A model generated the notes under the pieces. It saw only the letters and a program-made list of their open reading frames with translations, made no database searches and had not been told where the DNA came from. Shown piece by piece: positions 1 through 5,180 of a stretch of 5,180 nucleotides of DNA. Each line of letters starts with the position of its first letter. The first letter of the stretch is position 1. The position numbers were made by a program, and so were the translations under genes. Origin of the DNA: Sedimentisphaerales bacterium (lineage in GTDB: Bacteria > Planctomycetota > Phycisphaerae > Sedimentisphaerales > SG8-4); the NCBI GenBank assembly GCA_016932895.1, contig JAFGCA010000536.1:1-5180 (forward strand), written 5' to 3'.

Positions 1-480
1 GATCTGCTGGGCGGCGCCGTAGTGGCCGGTCAGAATGATGATGGCCCGGAATCCATCCCGGCGCATCTCGCGACAGAGCTGTTCGAGCCAGGGCCGCAAG
101 TGCGTGGAGAAGACGTCGTTTTCCGGGTCCATGATGAACGTGTGTGGCTGATTGAGCCCCCCGACGCCGCCGTACAACGTCGGCGCGACCACCCCGCCGC
201 TCCGCTGCGCGGCCCGCACACAGAGCGCGTGCGCCTTGACCGCATCCACGCCCACCACGTTGTGCACACCGTGCCATTCAATCGTGCCCAACGGCTGGAA
301 AATAGTCGGGCATGCCCCCTGGGCCTCGTCGATCTCCCTGGGGCGTAGATATTCGAGCCGCACCTCACGCCCGTCTTGCCCCTGCGCGTCGTTCTTCTCC
401 CGTCCCGCCGTTACCGAGCCAAGCAACGCCCCCGCCGCCGCCGTGCCCAAGAACTCTCGTCGCCCAAATCGATCCGCCAC
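1..480 (-). CDS. Tat-exported creatininase-family amidohydrolase, N-terminal 160 residues (partial)
   Basis: Read on the minus strand from GTG at 480-478, the frame stays open for 160 codons to the window edge, so the C-terminus is missing. Residues 4-21 form a twin-arginine signal (RFGRREFLGTAAAGALLG), suggesting Tat export as a folded, metal-loaded enzyme. The mature part matches the creatininase family (creatinine amidohydrolase type, PF02633). PLGTIEWHGVHNVVGVD (residues 63-79) corresponds to the family motif G-S/T-x-E-x-HG-x-H-x5-D, with Glu68, His70 and Asp79 as likely metal ligands. LTGHYG (150-155) corresponds to the conserved NGHGG segment. Family members of this kind are about 230-300 residues, so roughly half is present. 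The family includes creatininase and other cyclic-amide or formamide hydrolases; the substrate here cannot be told. The GTG start is supported by an AGGAG seven bases upstream and because it places the RR motif at residue 7. The gene is divergent from the PurF-like gene. Confidence 0.87.
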   Translation of the reverse strand, partial: MADRFGRREFLGTAAAGALLGSVTAGREKNDAQGQDGREVRLEYLRPREIDEAQGACPTIFQPLGTIEWHGVHNVVGVDAVKAHALCVRAAQRSGGVVAPTLYGGVGGLNQPHTFIMDPENDVFSTHLRPWLEQLCREMRRDGFRAIIILTGHYGAAQQI

Positions 481-487
481 AATATCT

Positions 488-492
488 CTCCT
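488..492 (-). promoter_or_regulatory. Ribosome binding site that fixes the GTG start of the creatininase-family gene
   Basis: The minus strand reads AGGAG, then seven bases (AGATATT), then GTG. No ATG in this frame gives the Tat signal at the N-terminus, so this site decides the start. Confidence 0.7.
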
Positions 493-551
493 TTCCTTCG
501 AGCCGGCCTCAAAAGGCCCGCATGACAACACGCTGCCAAAGATATCTTCAG

Positions 552-580
552 ATTGTAGCCCAAAGAACCGCCCGGGGAAA
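552..580 (-). promoter_or_regulatory. Candidate promoter of the creatininase-family gene
   Basis: On the minus strand a TACAAT (positions 557-552, five of six matches to the -10 consensus) lies 17 bases after a weak TTTCCC (580-575). It would start transcription near 545, leaving a leader of about 65 bases before the GTG. The -35 element is poor, so this rests mainly on the -10. Confidence 0.35.
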
Positions 581-611
581 GCGCGATAGAGCGGACGGTG
601 ACAGGAAGAGT

Positions 612-640
612 TTGAATTTGCCGCGCGACTATGGTACGCT
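612..640 (+). promoter_or_regulatory. Candidate extended -10 promoter of the PurF-like gene
   Basis: TTGAAT (612-617), a 17-base spacer and TACGCT (635-640), with TGG directly before the -10 (an extended -10 TGn). Transcription would start near 647, about 75 bases before the ATG. The arrangement and many bases recur in front of the ThuA gene (2614-2642), which raises confidence in both. Confidence 0.5.
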
Positions 641-720
641 GTAGTCGTTAGCAATAAACTCGGCTCGGTGATGAACTCCGGAGCCCCTCGCTTGCAAAGG
701 CAACAACAAGGAGACAGAGC

Positions 721-2223
721 ATGAGTGGCATCTTCGGTGTGGTGTCCCGGTCGAATTGTGCCGAGACCCTGTTCCACGGAACGGACTATCACTCGCATCT
801 GGGCACGGAGTACGGAGGCATGGCCGTCCTCGGGCAGGACTTTGCCCGCCAGATACACGACCTCAGCCAGAGCCAGTTCAAATCGAAGTTCTTCGAAGAC
901 TACGCTCGAATGAAGGGCAACAAAGGCATCGGCGTGGTCAGCGACCTTGATGAACAGCCGATCTATCTCAATTCGCGATTCGGCCCCTTCTGCCTGGCCA
1001 CCAACGGCTATATCGAAAATGCCGAAGAGCTGGCGGCCCAGTTGCTCAAGAAGGGCATCTCCTTCAGCGAAGTCAGCCGCAGGGCCGTCAACACCACGGA
1101 GTTGGTCGCCAAGCTCATCAGCCAGGGAACCGACCTGGTGAACGGGATCGAGAAGATGTTCGAGGCCATCGAAGGCTCGTGCTCACTGCTCCTGCTCAAC
1201 CGGACCGGGATCTACGCCGCCCGGGACCGGTTCGGGTATACGCCCCTGATTGTCGGGCAAAACCGGGACGGCTGGGCTGTGACCACGGAGACCTGCGCCT
1301 TTCGGAATCTCGGATTTGAGACGGTCAAACACATCGCCCCCGGCGAAGTCACCCTGCTCAACGAGGACGGAATCGTACAACGTCGACCGGGCCGGTCGAG
1401 AGCACAGCAAATCTGTGCGTTCCTGTGGATATACACCGGCTTTCCCGCTTCCAGCTACAACGGGATCAACGTGGAAATCGTCAGGGAACGAAGCGGACGC
1501 TGTCTCGCCCGGCATGACACGGACATCGAGGTGGACCTGGTCTCGGGCGTGCCCGACTCGGGATTCGCTCACGGGCTGGGGTACGCCATGGAATCGGGCA
1601 AGCCGTTCCGTCGTCCGCTGGTCAAATACACGCCCGGGTACGGCCGAAGCTACACTCCCCCCTCGCAACACACCCGCGACCTGATCGCCAAAATGAAGCT
1701 CATCCCCATCAAGGACGTCATCAACGGCAACAGCATCGTGATCTGCGAAGATTCCATTGTCAGAGGGACGCAGCTCAAGAACTTCACCATCAACAAGCTG
1801 TGGGACTGTGGGGCGAAAGAGATCCACGTACGACCGGCGTGCCCTCCCCTGATGTTCCCCTGCGTGTTCAACCTGTCCACGCGATCCATTCAGGAACTGG
1901 CCGCCCGCAAGGCGATTCGCGACATCGAGGGCCACGACCTCGCCGACGTTTCGGAGTACATCGACCACCACTCGGACAAATACAAAAAGATGGTGGACTG
2001 GATCGCGCGGGACCTGGGCGTCACGACGTTGCGTTACCAGACCGTGGACGATATGGTCGAAGCGATCGGGCAACCGCGCGAGCAACTTTGCCTCTACTGC
2101 TGGACAGGCGAGTGCCCCAAGGCCGCCTGCCCGAAGGGCACTATCGACATTGTGGCCGCGGGCAAGCCTGGCGGGCGAAAGAAACGGGCCGAAGACGCCG
2201 CCGACCAACAGAAGCTCTGGTAA
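721..2223 (+). CDS. PurF-like amidophosphoribosyltransferase paralogue lacking the N-terminal Cys nucleophile
   Basis: A complete 500-residue cytoplasmic protein with an Ntn glutamine-amidotransferase domain (about 1-225) and a PRPP phosphoribosyltransferase domain (about 260-400). PurF normally makes 5-phosphoribosylamine from PRPP and glutamine, the first committed step of purine synthesis. The PRPP loop is clear (ICEDSIVRGT, 341-350), as is the flexible-loop segment GRSYTPPSQ (308-316). Cys232, Cys381, Cys457 and Cys460 line up with the four [4Fe-4S] ligands of Bacillus subtilis PurF; Cys465 and Cys470 are extra. The protein begins Met-Ser-Gly, not Met-Cys-Gly, so the glutaminase nucleophile is Ser2. 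The GHxRY glutamine-binding motif is replaced by IGVVSDLDEQP (70-80), although NG (95-96) and the RD of 168-169 remain. It may be ammonia-dependent, structural, or have another reaction. I recall similar proteins with a non-Cys second residue in Bacteroidetes annotated as PurF. Length is near normal (about 470-505), with a charged tail after 475. AAGGAG at 708-713, seven bases before the ATG, supports the start. Confidence 0.9.
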   Translation: MSGIFGVVSRSNCAETLFHGTDYHSHLGTEYGGMAVLGQDFARQIHDLSQSQFKSKFFEDYARMKGNKGIGVVSDLDEQPIYLNSRFGPFCLATNGYIENAEELAAQLLKKGISFSEVSRRAVNTTELVAKLISQGTDLVNGIEKMFEAIEGSCSLLLLNRTGIYAARDRFGYTPLIVGQNRDGWAVTTETCAFRNLGFETVKHIAPGEVTLLNEDGIVQRRPGRSRAQQICAFLWIYTGFPASSYNGINVEIVRERSGRCLARHDTDIEVDLVSGVPDSGFAHGLGYAMESGKPFRRPLVKYTPGYGRSYTPPSQHTRDLIAKMKLIPIKDVINGNSIVICEDSIVRGTQLKNFTINKLWDCGAKEIHVRPACPPLMFPCVFNLSTRSIQELAARKAIRDIEGHDLADVSEYIDHHSDKYKKMVDWIARDLGVTTLRYQTVDDMVEAIGQPREQLCLYCWTGECPKAACPKGTIDIVAAGKPGGRKKRAEDAADQQKLW

Positions 2224-2613: not shown

Positions 2614-2642
2614 TTGTATTGTGCCGGCGGCTTTGGTACCCT
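2614..2642 (+). promoter_or_regulatory. Candidate extended -10 promoter of the ThuA-ThuA-phosphatase gene
   Basis: TTGTAT (2614-2619), a 17-base spacer and TACCCT (2637-2642), with TGG immediately before the -10. Transcription would start near 2649, about 57 bases before the ATG at 2706. Aligned without gaps to 611-640, the 30 bases from 2613 agree at about 21 positions, including TTTG, ATT, CT and TGGTAC. Confidence 0.5.
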
Positions 2643-2693
2643 ACGCTCCTAAGAAACGTGTTGATTCGATCCATGAGCGTTGCCAACTGTAAG

Positions 2694-2698
2694 AAGGA
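2694..2698 (+). promoter_or_regulatory. Ribosome binding site that fixes the start of the ThuA-ThuA-phosphatase gene
   Basis: AAGGA lies seven bases before ATG 2706. An in-frame ATG at 2673 would add 11 residues ahead of the signal sequence but has no such site, so 2706 is preferred. Confidence 0.65.
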
Positions 2699-2705
2699 AA
2701 CCAGC

Positions 2706-5180
2706 ATGAATCAAAGAATCAGGACCATCTCGTGGCAGACAGCGATCCTGTGTGCGGCGGTGTTCGCCCTGAGCACGTGCACCGTATCCCCCGAAACGGA
2801 AACCCGCAAGGTGGTGATTGTCACCGGCATCGACTACCCGGGACACAAATGGCAGGAGACCGCGCCGGCGCTGGCCCGCGTGCTGCGCGCCGACGCCCGA
2901 CTCAAAGTCGACGTGGTCGAGACGCCCAGCTTCCTGGCCTCGCCCAAGCTGCATGAATACGACACCTGCGTGCTGCATTTCATGAACTGGGAAAGCCCCG
3001 ATCCGGGCCCGAACGCCCGCGAGAACCTCGTTCGCTTCGTGTGCGAGGGCGGAGGCCTGGTGCCCATACATTTCGCCTGCGGGGCGTTCCAGGGCTGGGA
3101 CGAGTTTGTCAAGCTGGCCGGACGGGCCTACGACCCCAAAATGAGAGGCCACGACCCCCGCGGTCCGTTTCAGGTCACCATGACGGAGGTGGACCATCCC
3201 ATCACGGCCGGGCTGACCGCCTTCGAGACCGACGACGAGCTGTACACCTGCCTGGCGGGCGATACGCCCATCACCGTCCTGGCCCATTCCAAGTCCAAGG
3301 TTGACGGCAAGAACTACGCCATGGCGTTCATCCTGAACTACGGCCAGGGACGCGTCTTCCACAGTCCTCTGGGCCACGACGTCGGGGCGATTGTCAACCC
3401 GGCGGTCGCCGAGTTGCTGCGACGCGGCTGCGCCTGGAGCGCCGGATTGCCGCCTGTAGCCCCGGCGCCACAACCGCGTCCCAGGAAAATCGCGTTCATC
3501 GCGGGCACGCCCAGTCACGGCGAGGGCTGTCACGAATGGGACAAAGACGCACAGTTCCTCCAACAGTGCCTCGAGCAGGCCGCGAACGTCGAGCCGGTGC
3601 AGATTGATATTCACTACAACGGCTGGCCCGCAGACCCCGCGTCCCTGGACGACGCCGACGCGGTCATCTTCCTGGCGGACGGGCGCGAACATCACCCGCT
3701 CGCCCAGCCCGGCCGGATCGAGAAAATCCGCGCGCTGGCCGAGCGAGGAACGGGACTGGCCTTCCTTCACTACTGCGTGGACCCGCCCGAGGGAGCGCAG
3801 GAGGATTTCCTGAACTGGATCGGGGGTTGCTACGATCCCAACCGCTCGCAGAATCCGATCAACGTGGTGCAGACCGCTCCCGTGCAAACCGGCCATCCGA
3901 TCAGCCGGGGTTGCAGGGGATACGTCGCCGAGGACGAATGGTACTTCGACTTCGGCTTCTGTCCCGACAAACAACGCGTCACTCCCGTCATGACCGGAAA
4001 ACTCCCCCCGCGCGACCCGCAGGACAAGGTCCTGGCCTGGGCCTGCACGCGGACGGACGGAGGACGCGGCTTCGGCTTCGCCGGCGGTCACTACCGCAAA
4101 AACTGGCACATGGAGCCGTTCCGCAAGCTGGTCTTGAACGCGATTCTGTGGGTGGCGAAAGCCGAAGTCCCCGAGGAGGGAGTCGCCTCCATGCAGCCCT
4201 GGCGGTTCGTGAGCATTCCGGATTTTGTGAACGTGGACCTGACGTATCCCCAGCCTGGATGGGAAGAGACGCTGGACTACGTGCTCAAGGCGGTCAAGGC
4301 GGAAAACCCGGAGTTCGTCCTGGTCGCGGGCGATCTGGTCATGGGCCGCTGGCCGGATAAGGAGAGCATCGAGAAATACGCGGCCACCTATTACCCCGCC
4401 TGGATCAAACGGATGCAGGACCACGGGCTGACCTTCTACACCGCCATCGGCGACCACGATATCGGCGACAATCCCTGGCCCGATGATAAGGCCAAGCTGG
4501 TCCGCACCTTCAAGAGGCAATTCCAGAAGTATCTCAAGATGCCATTGAACGGCCCGCTCCGCATGAAGGGCACGGCCTTCTGGCTCGTTCACGAAAACGC
4601 GTTGTTCGTCGCGCTCGACGTCTTCGAGAAAGGCGAGGGCCCCCAGGGCGGCATCGTCCCGAAAGTCACGGGCGAGCAGCTCGAATGGCTCCGGCAGACC
4701 CTCGCCGACAACCCGGGCGTCGAGCACGTCGTCGTCATGGGCCATACGCCGATCCTCGGGCCCGTCGCTAAAGAAAGCTCCAGTGGACTGATGTTAGAAG
4801 GCGGCGCCGAATCGCCGCTCTGGCAGACGCTGAAAGAACACCACGTGGATGTATACCTGTGCGGCGAAGTTCACGCCATCACCTGCACCAAAGCCGACGG
4901 CGTGCTGCAGATCGCTCACGGTGGCCTCTTCGGCTACAACCCCAAAGTCAACTATCTCGTGGCCACGGTATGGCCCGATCAAATCGAGCTGGAGCTCAAG
5001 GAAATCGCCATCGTCAATGAAGGGGACCGCCTCTGGCAGGAAGGCCGGAACCGCCCCCACGAGCGCGTCACCATCACCGACGAGACAAAACGCGCGGGCT
5101 TTGCCACCGTCGGAACTGCCATCCTTCGTGCACAGGACGGGGGCCAAACCATCGAACATGCAACCGGCCGCTTCGAGCCC
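2706..5180 (+). CDS. Exported ThuA-ThuA-metallophosphatase multidomain protein (C-terminus beyond window)
   Basis: An uninterrupted frame of 825 codons open at the right edge. Residues 1-25 look like a Sec signal with a weak lipobox (LSTC, Cys25; Thr at -1 is atypical), so it may be a lipoprotein. A first ThuA-like domain (about 35-245, PF06283 type) shows HFACGAF (122-128), DHPITAGL (163-170), DDELY (176-180) and GQGRVFHSPLGHD (213-225). A second, more divergent one (about 261-485) shows IAGTPSHG (265-272), AEDEWY (408-413), RGFGFAGGHYRKNW (454-467) and LNAILW (477-482). A calcineurin-like phosphoesterase domain (about 500-770) follows: IPDFVNVD (504-511), AGDLVMGRW (541-549), IGDHDIGDNPWP (581-592), MGHTP (678-682) and CGEVHA (719-724). 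Metal motifs differ from canonical DxH, GNHD and GHxH, having DFV, GDHD and GEVH. ThuA proteins are linked to sugar use or breakdown, and the phosphatase domain suggests a periplasmic phosphoester hydrolase; the substrate is unknown. Confidence 0.85.
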   Translation, partial: MNQRIRTISWQTAILCAAVFALSTCTVSPETETRKVVIVTGIDYPGHKWQETAPALARVLRADARLKVDVVETPSFLASPKLHEYDTCVLHFMNWESPDPGPNARENLVRFVCEGGGLVPIHFACGAFQGWDEFVKLAGRAYDPKMRGHDPRGPFQVTMTEVDHPITAGLTAFETDDELYTCLAGDTPITVLAHSKSKVDGKNYAMAFILNYGQGRVFHSPLGHDVGAIVNPAVAELLRRGCAWSAGLPPVAPAPQPRPRKIAFIAGTPSHGEGCHEWDKDAQFLQQCLEQAANVEPVQIDIHYNGWPADPASLDDADAVIFLADGREHHPLAQPGRIEKIRALAERGTGLAFLHYCVDPPEGAQEDFLNWIGGCYDPNRSQNPINVVQTAPVQTGHPISRGCRGYVAEDEWYFDFGFCPDKQRVTPVMTGKLPPRDPQDKVLAWACTRTDGGRGFGFAGGHYRKNWHMEPFRKLVLNAILWVAKAEVPEEGVASMQPWRFVSIPDFVNVDLTYPQPGWEETLDYVLKAVKAENPEFVLVAGDLVMGRWPDKESIEKYAATYYPAWIKRMQDHGLTFYTAIGDHDIGDNPWPDDKAKLVRTFKRQFQKYLKMPLNGPLRMKGTAFWLVHENALFVALDVFEKGEGPQGGIVPKVTGEQLEWLRQTLADNPGVEHVVVMGHTPILGPVAKESSSGLMLEGGAESPLWQTLKEHHVDVYLCGEVHAITCTKADGVLQIAHGGLFGYNPKVNYLVATVWPDQIELELKEIAIVNEGDRLWQEGRNRPHERVTITDETKRAGFATVGTAILRAQDGGQTIEHATGRFEP

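Follow-up and report, generated by a model that had tools for sequence, protein, structure and literature searches.

The gene at positions 721–2223 (+ strand) of the window, by which we mean the whole 5,180-nucleotide stretch of DNA that was analysed, encodes a 500-residue homologue of PurF, the amidophosphoribosyltransferase that catalyses the committed step of purine synthesis with glutamine as a substrate. Its N-terminus reads MSGIFG, with Ser at the position of the catalytic Cys. The question this raises is whether we are looking at a damaged or misread purF or at a member of a distinct family and, if the latter, what such a protein might do.

The start of the gene gives no reason to suspect misreading. 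A Shine-Dalgarno-like AAGGAG lies 7 nt 5' of the ATG, and an in-frame stop is found 5' of position 721 with no ATG, GTG or TTG in between. The start is therefore sound, and we rule out a mis-called start as the source of the absent Cys. Brown et al. 2011 found wrongly called starts in three archaeal purF genes (PMC3261824). The window flanks hold a creatininase-family ORF (- strand) and, downstream, a ThuA and metallophosphatase ORF, with no purine gene among them. A promoter scan found nothing sigma-70-like in 540–2760, and there is no tRNA within the window. The features referred to below are as follows.

708..713, +, Shine-Dalgarno-like AAGGAG, 7 nt 5' of the ATG
721..2223, +, ORF for a PurF paralogue without glutaminase site (500 aa; TIGR01134 222.4 bits; best PDB matches 1gph/1ao0)
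721..1395, +, Ntn (class II amidotransferase) domain, residues about 1–225, active site dismantled (Pfam GATase_7 at 74–194; alignment; AlphaFold2)
724..726, +, Ser2 codon, position of catalytic Cys1
799..801, +, Leu27 at the E. coli Arg26 position
937..942, +, junction (residues 73/74) of the deletion, 8 residues long, in which Arg73/Tyr74 are lost (gap in 76/76 loci, 120/120 nearest proteins, 15/15 further genes)
1003..1008, +, Asn95-Gly96 (E. coli Asn101-Gly102); the Asn is variable in the clade
1093..1095, +, Thr125, aligned with Asp127 in the MAFFT alignment (alignment-dependent)
1396..2115, +, phosphoribosyltransferase (PRTase) domain, residues about 226–465 (PDB alignment; Foldseek 1ao0_A)
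1414..1416, +, Cys232, first [4Fe-4S] ligand position (Cys in 75/76 loci, 120/120 nearest)
1747..1773, +, PRPP-binding loop EDSIVRGTQ (343–351), RGTQ for RGTT; Asp344 and Arg348 invariant
1861..1863, +, Cys381, second [4Fe-4S] ligand position (75/76, 120/120)
2089..2100, +, Cys457 and Cys460, third and fourth [4Fe-4S] ligand positions (76/76 and 75/76; 120/120 each)
2119..2220, +, low-confidence C-terminal tail, residues 467–500 (pLDDT <50), shorter or absent in many relatives

The PurF fold and the glutaminase site

The NCBIfam purF model (TIGR01134) matches residues 3–464 at 222.4 bits, below its cut-off of 350, and the closest PDB structures are those of B. subtilis PurF (1gph/1ao0, E about 1e-56), with the same outcome when the family profile is used. 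Identity is 25.6% to E. coli PurF and 28.5–30.9% to six canonical PurFs. When an AlphaFold2 model (33 sequences, mean pLDDT 87.0) was compared with the PDB by Foldseek, the 17 best matches were all PurF chains, with 1ao0_A matching across the whole protein (E 2.9e-38, TM 0.79/0.86). Canonical PurF (TIGR01134; B. subtilis 1gph/1ao0, E. coli 1ecf) and the window protein thus have in common the two-domain fold, the PRPP loop and the four Fe-S cysteine positions, but the window protein lacks Cys1, Arg26, His71, Arg73, Tyr74 and Asp127 and scores under 350 bits.

To place these losses, we used a MAFFT alignment of E. coli PurF with 76 of the 80 loci that we fetched (the other four are truncated and were left out) and the 120 nearest proteins. 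The 80 loci are the best matches of a scan whose matches had to contain TDYHSHLG or C[AST]FLWIYT, which favours the letters of those peptides among them. As a cross-check we used 15 distinct genes of the same kind found outside the motif scan (19 rows, in which two repeat scan genes and two more are repeat fetches of one other gene). We call proteins of this kind S/G-type and their Cys-bearing relatives, described below, C-type; both names are coined here. The E. coli positions Cys1, Arg26, His71, Arg73, Tyr74, Asn101, Gly102 and Asp127 are those we take to be the glutaminase sites.

In the window protein, Cys1 is replaced by Ser2, Arg26 by Leu27 and His71 by Val72; Arg73 and Tyr74 fall inside an 8-residue deletion (GIGVV|SDLDEQP); Asn101 and Gly102 correspond to Asn95 and Gly96; and Thr125 aligns with Asp127. 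The clade looks much the same. Ser occupies the catalytic position in 120/120 of the nearest proteins by alignment (119/120 by N-terminus, P0010 having an alternative start upstream), among them the closest, at 94% identity; no homologue with 95% identity was found. In the 76 loci the position is Ser in 37, Gly in 34, a gap in 3, Asp in 1 and Ala in 1. The position of Arg26 is Leu or Met in all 196 aligned relatives, the Arg73/Tyr74 loop is deleted in 196/196, and the Asp127 column, in a gap-rich stretch, has no Asp in the MAFFT alignment (0/196). All 15 genes outside the motif scan have Ser/Gly at the catalytic position, Leu/Met at that of Arg26, and neither Arg73 nor Tyr74. Every listed site is present in the 14 canonical PurFs of the alignment, but since these were chosen by the GH[VT]RY motif and DDS, their His71, Arg73 and Tyr74 are kept by selection; canonical PurFs chosen without that motif (L121–L125, L130–L132 and L160 minus strand) have all the sites in 9/9.

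The first-pass annotation, made from the window alone, had proposed that Ser occupies the place of the catalytic Cys and that several glutaminase residues are gone together, so that a single sequencing error would not account for it. Both points are borne out, by Ser in 120/120 and Ser/Gly in 71/76 for the former, with position 2 checked across the clade, and by the same state in 196/196 and 15/15 further genes for the latter; the alignment with E. coli likewise confirmed a PurF relative without glutaminase residues. Some details need amending. The GHxRY segment is lost as stated, but it has not been replaced by IGVVSDLDEQP: the segment with Arg73 and Tyr74 is deleted in 196/196, by 8 residues in the window protein. 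The loss of Asp127 holds (Thr125 aligned, no Asp in 196/196), though its exact partner depends on the alignment, a second one placing Arg there in the window protein and Asp in one relative (L133). The fold is kept, as claimed and as the 17 best Foldseek matches indicate; of the Asn-Gly pair said to be kept, Gly is retained in 192/196 but Asn in only 87/196 (73/120 nearest, 14/76 loci). The loss of Arg26 (Leu27) is additional to those the annotation had listed. Our conclusion from these comparisons is that, at the level of sequence, glutaminase loss is a trait of the clade and not of one gene.

Could the Ser act as a substitute Ntn nucleophile? We consider this unlikely, because the position is Gly in 34/76 loci and because replacing the Cys of E. 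coli PurF by Ser or Ala leaves glutamine activity undetectable while ammonia activity is kept (Mei and Zalkin 1989, as reported in PMC3261824). The lost Cys and glutamine pocket speak strongly against ordinary glutamine use by the predicted protein.

Retained sites and selection

The PRPP-binding half is another matter. Asp344 and Arg348 of the PRPP loop are present in 76/76 loci and 120/120 nearest proteins, and the window protein matches the canonical loop pattern [DE]DSIVRGT. The four cysteines, which we take to be the [4Fe-4S] ligands in B. subtilis PurF, are conserved at the positions of the B. subtilis type, with the cluster itself putative.

We estimated Nei-Gojobori dN/dS for seven pairs, in several of which dS is near saturation, and obtained 0.025–0.112 for the Ntn half and 0.024–0.128 for the PRTase half. 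Mean column entropy (Ntn/PRTase) is 1.49/1.19 bits in the paralogues, not far from the 1.37/1.13 bits in the 14 canonical PurFs. Within the dead Ntn domain a separate set of residues is near-invariant (Cys13, Asp22, Tyr23, Ser25, Glu117, Ser153 and Asn196), of which the first four are present in 15/15 genes outside the motif scan; near-invariant and clade-specific in the PRTase half are RGTQ, an inserted Tyr303, His284, Trp236 and Glu252. Given purifying selection as strong as in the PRTase half, together with these residues, the Ntn domain is, by its sequence, a remodelled, selected domain, and the description of the glutamine site as "worn" does not survive.

Relatives, distribution and gene neighbourhood

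One relative, L137, comes from the phylum of G025, which is a Desulfobacterales genome; it keeps Cys, Arg26 and His71 but has lost the Arg73 loop. The C-type set comprises L137 and 120 homologues, the named ones listed being Deltaproteobacteria or Thermodesulfobacteriota. Across these 121 sequences Cys1 is present in 120, Arg26 in 121 and His71 in 120, while Arg73 and Tyr74 are deleted in 121; Asn101 is replaced by Ser/Gly in 121, and at the Asp127 position 106 carry Asn and 11 carry Asp. The C-type thus differs from the S/G-type in keeping Cys1, Arg26, His71 and a short propeptide-like N-terminus, and resembles it in the Arg73/Tyr74 deletion, in RGTQ (in the rows shown) and in the Fe-S cysteines (121/121). 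Cys13 is found in 74/76 S/G-type sequences, 119/121 C-type sequences and none of the 14 canonical PurFs. In the one C-type contig that we read (L142), carB is followed by the C-type gene.

In a tree, 16 C-type sequences group with the S/G-type and not with the canonical or long PurFs, with an SH-aLRT of 100. A second tree (60 rows) gives bootstrap 100 to each of the S/G-type, C-type and PurF'-like groups, and also to the branch that separates canonical and PurF'-like sequences together from the rest. Since the C-type lacks the Arg73 loop yet has the Cys, and is joined to the S/G-type, we infer that the Arg73 loop was probably lost before the Cys, which would make the Cys-bearing C-type an evolutionary intermediate.

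Named loci of the S/G-type come from Planctomycetota, Omnitrophota, Elusimicrobiota, Thermodesulfobacteriota, Acidobacteriota, Spirochaetota, Chloroflexota, Lentisphaerota, Bacteroidota, Lokiarchaeia and others. The gene is sparse in the Planctomycetota sample, with 12/294 carriers, and commoner both in the phylum of G025, with 13/59 (one of them divided between two contigs), and in the Bacteroidales, the order of G024 (a Prolixibacteraceae genome), with 15/40; a wider sample of the phylum of G024 has 1/60, the one being G024 itself. A plasmid search returned S/G-type relatives in four records, at 43.5–45.9% identity.

Most carriers also encode another PurF. In the genomes of the fetched loci, a PurF above the cut-off was found in 21/26 and 19/29; adding a long Cys-bearing PurF in G024, G026 and G054 and a canonical-looking fragment in G050 brings the total to 44/55. 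The long PurF, of the Bacteroidales/Lentisphaerota type (about 590–680 aa, KHEC start), occurs with the paralogue where no PurF of the genome reaches the TIGR01134 level. In the three that we read from end to end, Cys1, Arg26, His71, Arg73, Tyr74, Asn101 and Asp127 are all present and Gly102 is changed to Phe; identity to the window protein is about 20%. A search for the long PurF in the other 11/55 genomes found none (6/6 positive controls were recovered). PurD is encoded in 50/55 genomes, including 9 of those 11, so the absence of PurF may be either real or due to assembly loss. Nine genomes, then, have PurD and no PurF besides the paralogue, which incomplete assemblies can explain.

The phylum-level samples agree. 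A PurF above the cut-off occurs in 10/12 planctomycetotal carriers (nine listed; G122 by its E-value, 9.4e-133), and the remaining two have short partial PurF matches, one at a contig end. All 13 carriers in the phylum of G025 have a second match that is canonical-level by score (207–255 bits, family profile), and 13/15 Bacteroidales carriers have a long or canonical PurF as judged by score and length; in the other two, G466 and G468, PurD is present and the long PurF was not found. A Cys-type PurF is missing from 2/15 Bacteroidales carriers (both rechecked) against 2/25 non-carriers (at the threshold used, not rechecked), so paralogue-only genomes are not enriched and a replacement of PurF is unsupported. 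With another PurF in most carriers as well, we reject the paralogue as a general PurF replacement.

In the Lokiarchaeia-related genomes (G016 relatives) the two genes commonly lie together. Among the 41 S/G-type rows listed there, mostly assigned by score (the sequences read being L160–L163, L040, L044, L045 and L048), 38 have a canonical PurF listed for the same genome, and 32 lie on the same contig as canonical purF, 294–568 bp apart (match to match). Elsewhere, we looked in flanks of up to 10 kb for purF, purSL, purQ, purM, purD, purE, purB, purC, guaA, carA and carB, and found at least one in 22/80 loci, or 24/80 with a looser purF motif (the original missed L044 and L045); 58/80 loci, or 56/80 with the looser motif, have none, many loci being short. 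With the original motif the counts include carB (10), purM (6), purF (5) and purSL (5), and DUF1846 is there in 5; a rough estimate puts the chance expectation at about four gene matches. The marker genes were picked after recurrent neighbours had been noticed, and related loci are not independent. Examples of gene order are purSL-purQ-purF-paralogue-purM (L016), purSL-purQ-paralogue-purM (L029) and carA-carB-paralogue (L007). In Peptoclostridium acidaminophilum (protein WP_025436666.1), Parabacteroides and Bacteroides, pepT lies 3' of the paralogue (3/3 records opened of 4 such matches), with gcvT next in both Bacteroidales records. This linkage would suit cells that feed on amino acids and are rich in ammonia; a search of the other fetched loci found neither gene. 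No partner gene is constant across phyla in the 80 loci.

Candidate functions and known counterparts

From sequence, the S/G-type is a widespread ancient PurF paralogue family that has lost the glutamine-hydrolysis site and kept a PRPP-binding PRTase and the Fe-S cysteines. Because the PRPP site is retained and copies are linked to purine genes, it is simplest to read the protein as an accessory PRPP aminotransferase that depends on ammonia and works in addition to PurF; we would put the chances of this at about even. The paralogue would make 5-phosphoribosylamine from PRPP and free ammonia when ammonia is plentiful, the canonical PurF of the same cell would work from glutamine, and the remodelled Ntn domain would serve as scaffold, lid or effector site. 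Among the functions that the first-pass annotation had offered, ammonia use appears the best supported. Consistent with it are the glutaminase residues gone in 196/196 beside invariant PRPP-loop Asp and Arg (15/15 further genes agreeing), the dN/dS of 0.024–0.128 over both domains, the linkage to purine, guanine and carbamoyl-phosphate genes, and, by analogy, the ammonia activity that E. coli Cys1Ser/Ala PurF retains (as reported in PMC3261824). Several observations point the other way. The change from RGTT to RGTQ, the inserted Tyr303 and His284 could mean another acceptor. Tyr74, which we take to be an ammonia-channel residue of PurF, is deleted. There is no purine gene in the window flanks, 58/80 loci lack markers and pepT/gcvT recur in no other fetched locus; and, as regards a replacement of PurF, paralogue-only Bacteroidales are not enriched.

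The same data can be read in other ways. That another PurF usually coexists (13/13 in the phylum of G025, 10/12 Planctomycetota, 13/15 Bacteroidales, 38/41 listed Lokiarchaeia-related rows), that the paralogue adjoins purF in 32/41 listed Lokiarchaeia-related rows, and that new near-invariant residues (Asp22, Tyr23, Ser25) in the dead domain suggest a kept interface or ligand site would suit a regulatory pseudo-glutaminase, one that would form a complex with canonical PurF (or CarB) or act as its sensor, and would bind PRPP or nucleotides without turnover of its own. We think this rather unlikely: the PRPP-loop Asp and Arg are kept as strictly as in the enzyme, a conservation that a pure regulator might not require, and many copies are not near purF, having carB, pepT or unrelated genes as neighbours. 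Less probable still, in our estimation, is a phosphoribosyltransferase of a different kind, one that passes the phosphoribosyl group to another amine or is supplied with an amine or ammonia by a partner that docks onto the remodelled face of the Ntn domain. RGTQ, Tyr303, His284, Trp236 and Glu252, clade-specific and near-invariant, would be in keeping with it, as would the C-type, which lacks the Arg73 loop and still has Cys, Arg26 and His71, as if amide specificity had changed before the Cys was lost; yet the recurrent neighbours are nucleotide-synthesis genes and not one new pathway, and a constant partner gene is missing from the 80 loci. The absence of several catalytic residues together could also come about in a decaying purF copy or through a sequencing or start-codon artefact, to which we assign a negligible probability, the open frame with its Shine-Dalgarno sequence and stop, the same state in 196/196 and 15/15, and dN/dS of 0.024–0.128 having refuted pseudogene, single-genome error and start artefact alike.

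A more elaborate scheme, which we put forward as a doubtful one, is that the glutaminase pocket has been rebuilt: the C-type would have dropped the glutamine-binding loop and kept the Cys, and the S/G-type would then have dropped the Cys and fixed a patch of Cys13 and Asp22-Tyr23-x-Ser25-His26, giving a new PRPP enzyme, or a PRPP/nucleotide sensor that, together with PurF, CarB and PurLQ, would keep the purine and pyrimidine pathways in balance in many bacteria and in Asgard archaea.

A vestigial Cys-less Ntn domain kept as a scaffold is familiar from beta-lactam synthetase and other class II amidotransferase homologues, though the synthetase domain and chemistry of beta-lactam synthetase are unlike those of the PurF paralogue. 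There are also the Cys-less second PurFs of Crenarchaeota, named PurF' by Brown et al. 2011 (PMC3261824), which are reported to cluster near purF and other purine genes, are found beside a Cys-bearing PurF and were proposed to depend on ammonia. At the level of the family, the S/G-type is like PurF' in lacking the N-terminal Cys and in occurring beside a Cys-bearing PurF. It differs in having Ser/Gly where PurF' is described as often having Ala or Val, in a more dismantled site and in a range that is bacterial and Asgard. A Cys-less PurF with an ammonia hypothesis was thus already known, and the S/G-type is a further variant. Tandem second copies in G016 relatives (L150–L154), which we judged PurF'-like, have Cys in 3, Ser in 1 and Val in 1, with Arg26 in 5/5 and RGTT in 4/5 (RGST in L154); they fall among canonical PurFs in the tree, whose PurF'-like members are these five, and one clade with the C- and S/G-types is not rejected (AU p 0.49). 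In the PurF literature searched, which covered few subscription journals, PMC3261824 was the one paper that dealt with the idea, and we found no description of the bacterial S/G-type or C-type.

Where these proteins carry a name in the sources, it is mostly "amidophosphoribosyltransferase", though the glutaminase site is gone. As the family is found across many phyla, Asgard archaea among them as well as cultivable Bacteroidales and a clostridium, this mis-annotation can mislead metabolic models. If the S/G-type is indeed ammonia-dependent, it would be a purine counterpart of the ammonia-using synthetases, and would provide a test of the 2011 hypothesis for crenarchaeal PurF' (PMC3261824).

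Flanking genes in the window

The ORFs on either side of the paralogue are both truncated by a window edge:

1-858, minus strand: creatininase-family ORF (PF02633 at residues 171-283)
2619-5180, plus strand: fusion of ThuA (PF06283) and calcineurin-like phosphoesterase (PF00149)

N-terminal to its PF02633 domain, the creatininase-family ORF carries a GRREFLG stretch, which we take to be Tat-like. The fusion ORF likely starts at ATG 2706, and by our reading of its sequence the resulting leader would resemble the lipoprotein type.

Neighbourhoods and records at other loci

At five fetched loci (L010, L018, L019, L027 and L068) the paralogue has a nearby DUF1846 protein (PF08903), with carB also present at most of them. 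CRISPRi on a DUF1846 gene of Clostridioides difficile is described as giving a strong viability defect (PMC12548448).

L148 and L149, listed in PLSDB as 'plasmids' of Parabacteroides and Bacteroides, are probably chromosomal contigs: they contain either rplU with rpmA or eno.

Tandem, canonical and long PurF proteins

In five genomes related to the Lokiarchaeia genome G016, the second PurF ORF of a tandem pair (L150-L154) lacks the glutamine-binding Arg73 loop; three of the five retain the Cys. Possibly, these are PurF', the crenarchaeal second PurF, with Cys.

One in-frame TGA interrupts the canonical purF (G005:C1:363133-364455, minus strand) on an Omnitrophota chromosome of 1.1 Mb, for which sequencing error, decay and recoding are alternative explanations. 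In the Planctomycetota sample, the best purF match is divergent in many genomes (about 7e-91 to 2e-112), and 82 of 294 have no match above the purF cut-off (TIGR01134, 350 bits).

Long PurF-like proteins with a KHEC start and the glutaminase residues present were found at three loci:

L134, 387-2285
L135, 1111-2970, minus strand
L136, 614-2392

Such proteins score far under the same cut-off (137 bits for L135), and therefore automatic annotation may overlook the real PurF of Bacteroidales and Lentisphaerota.
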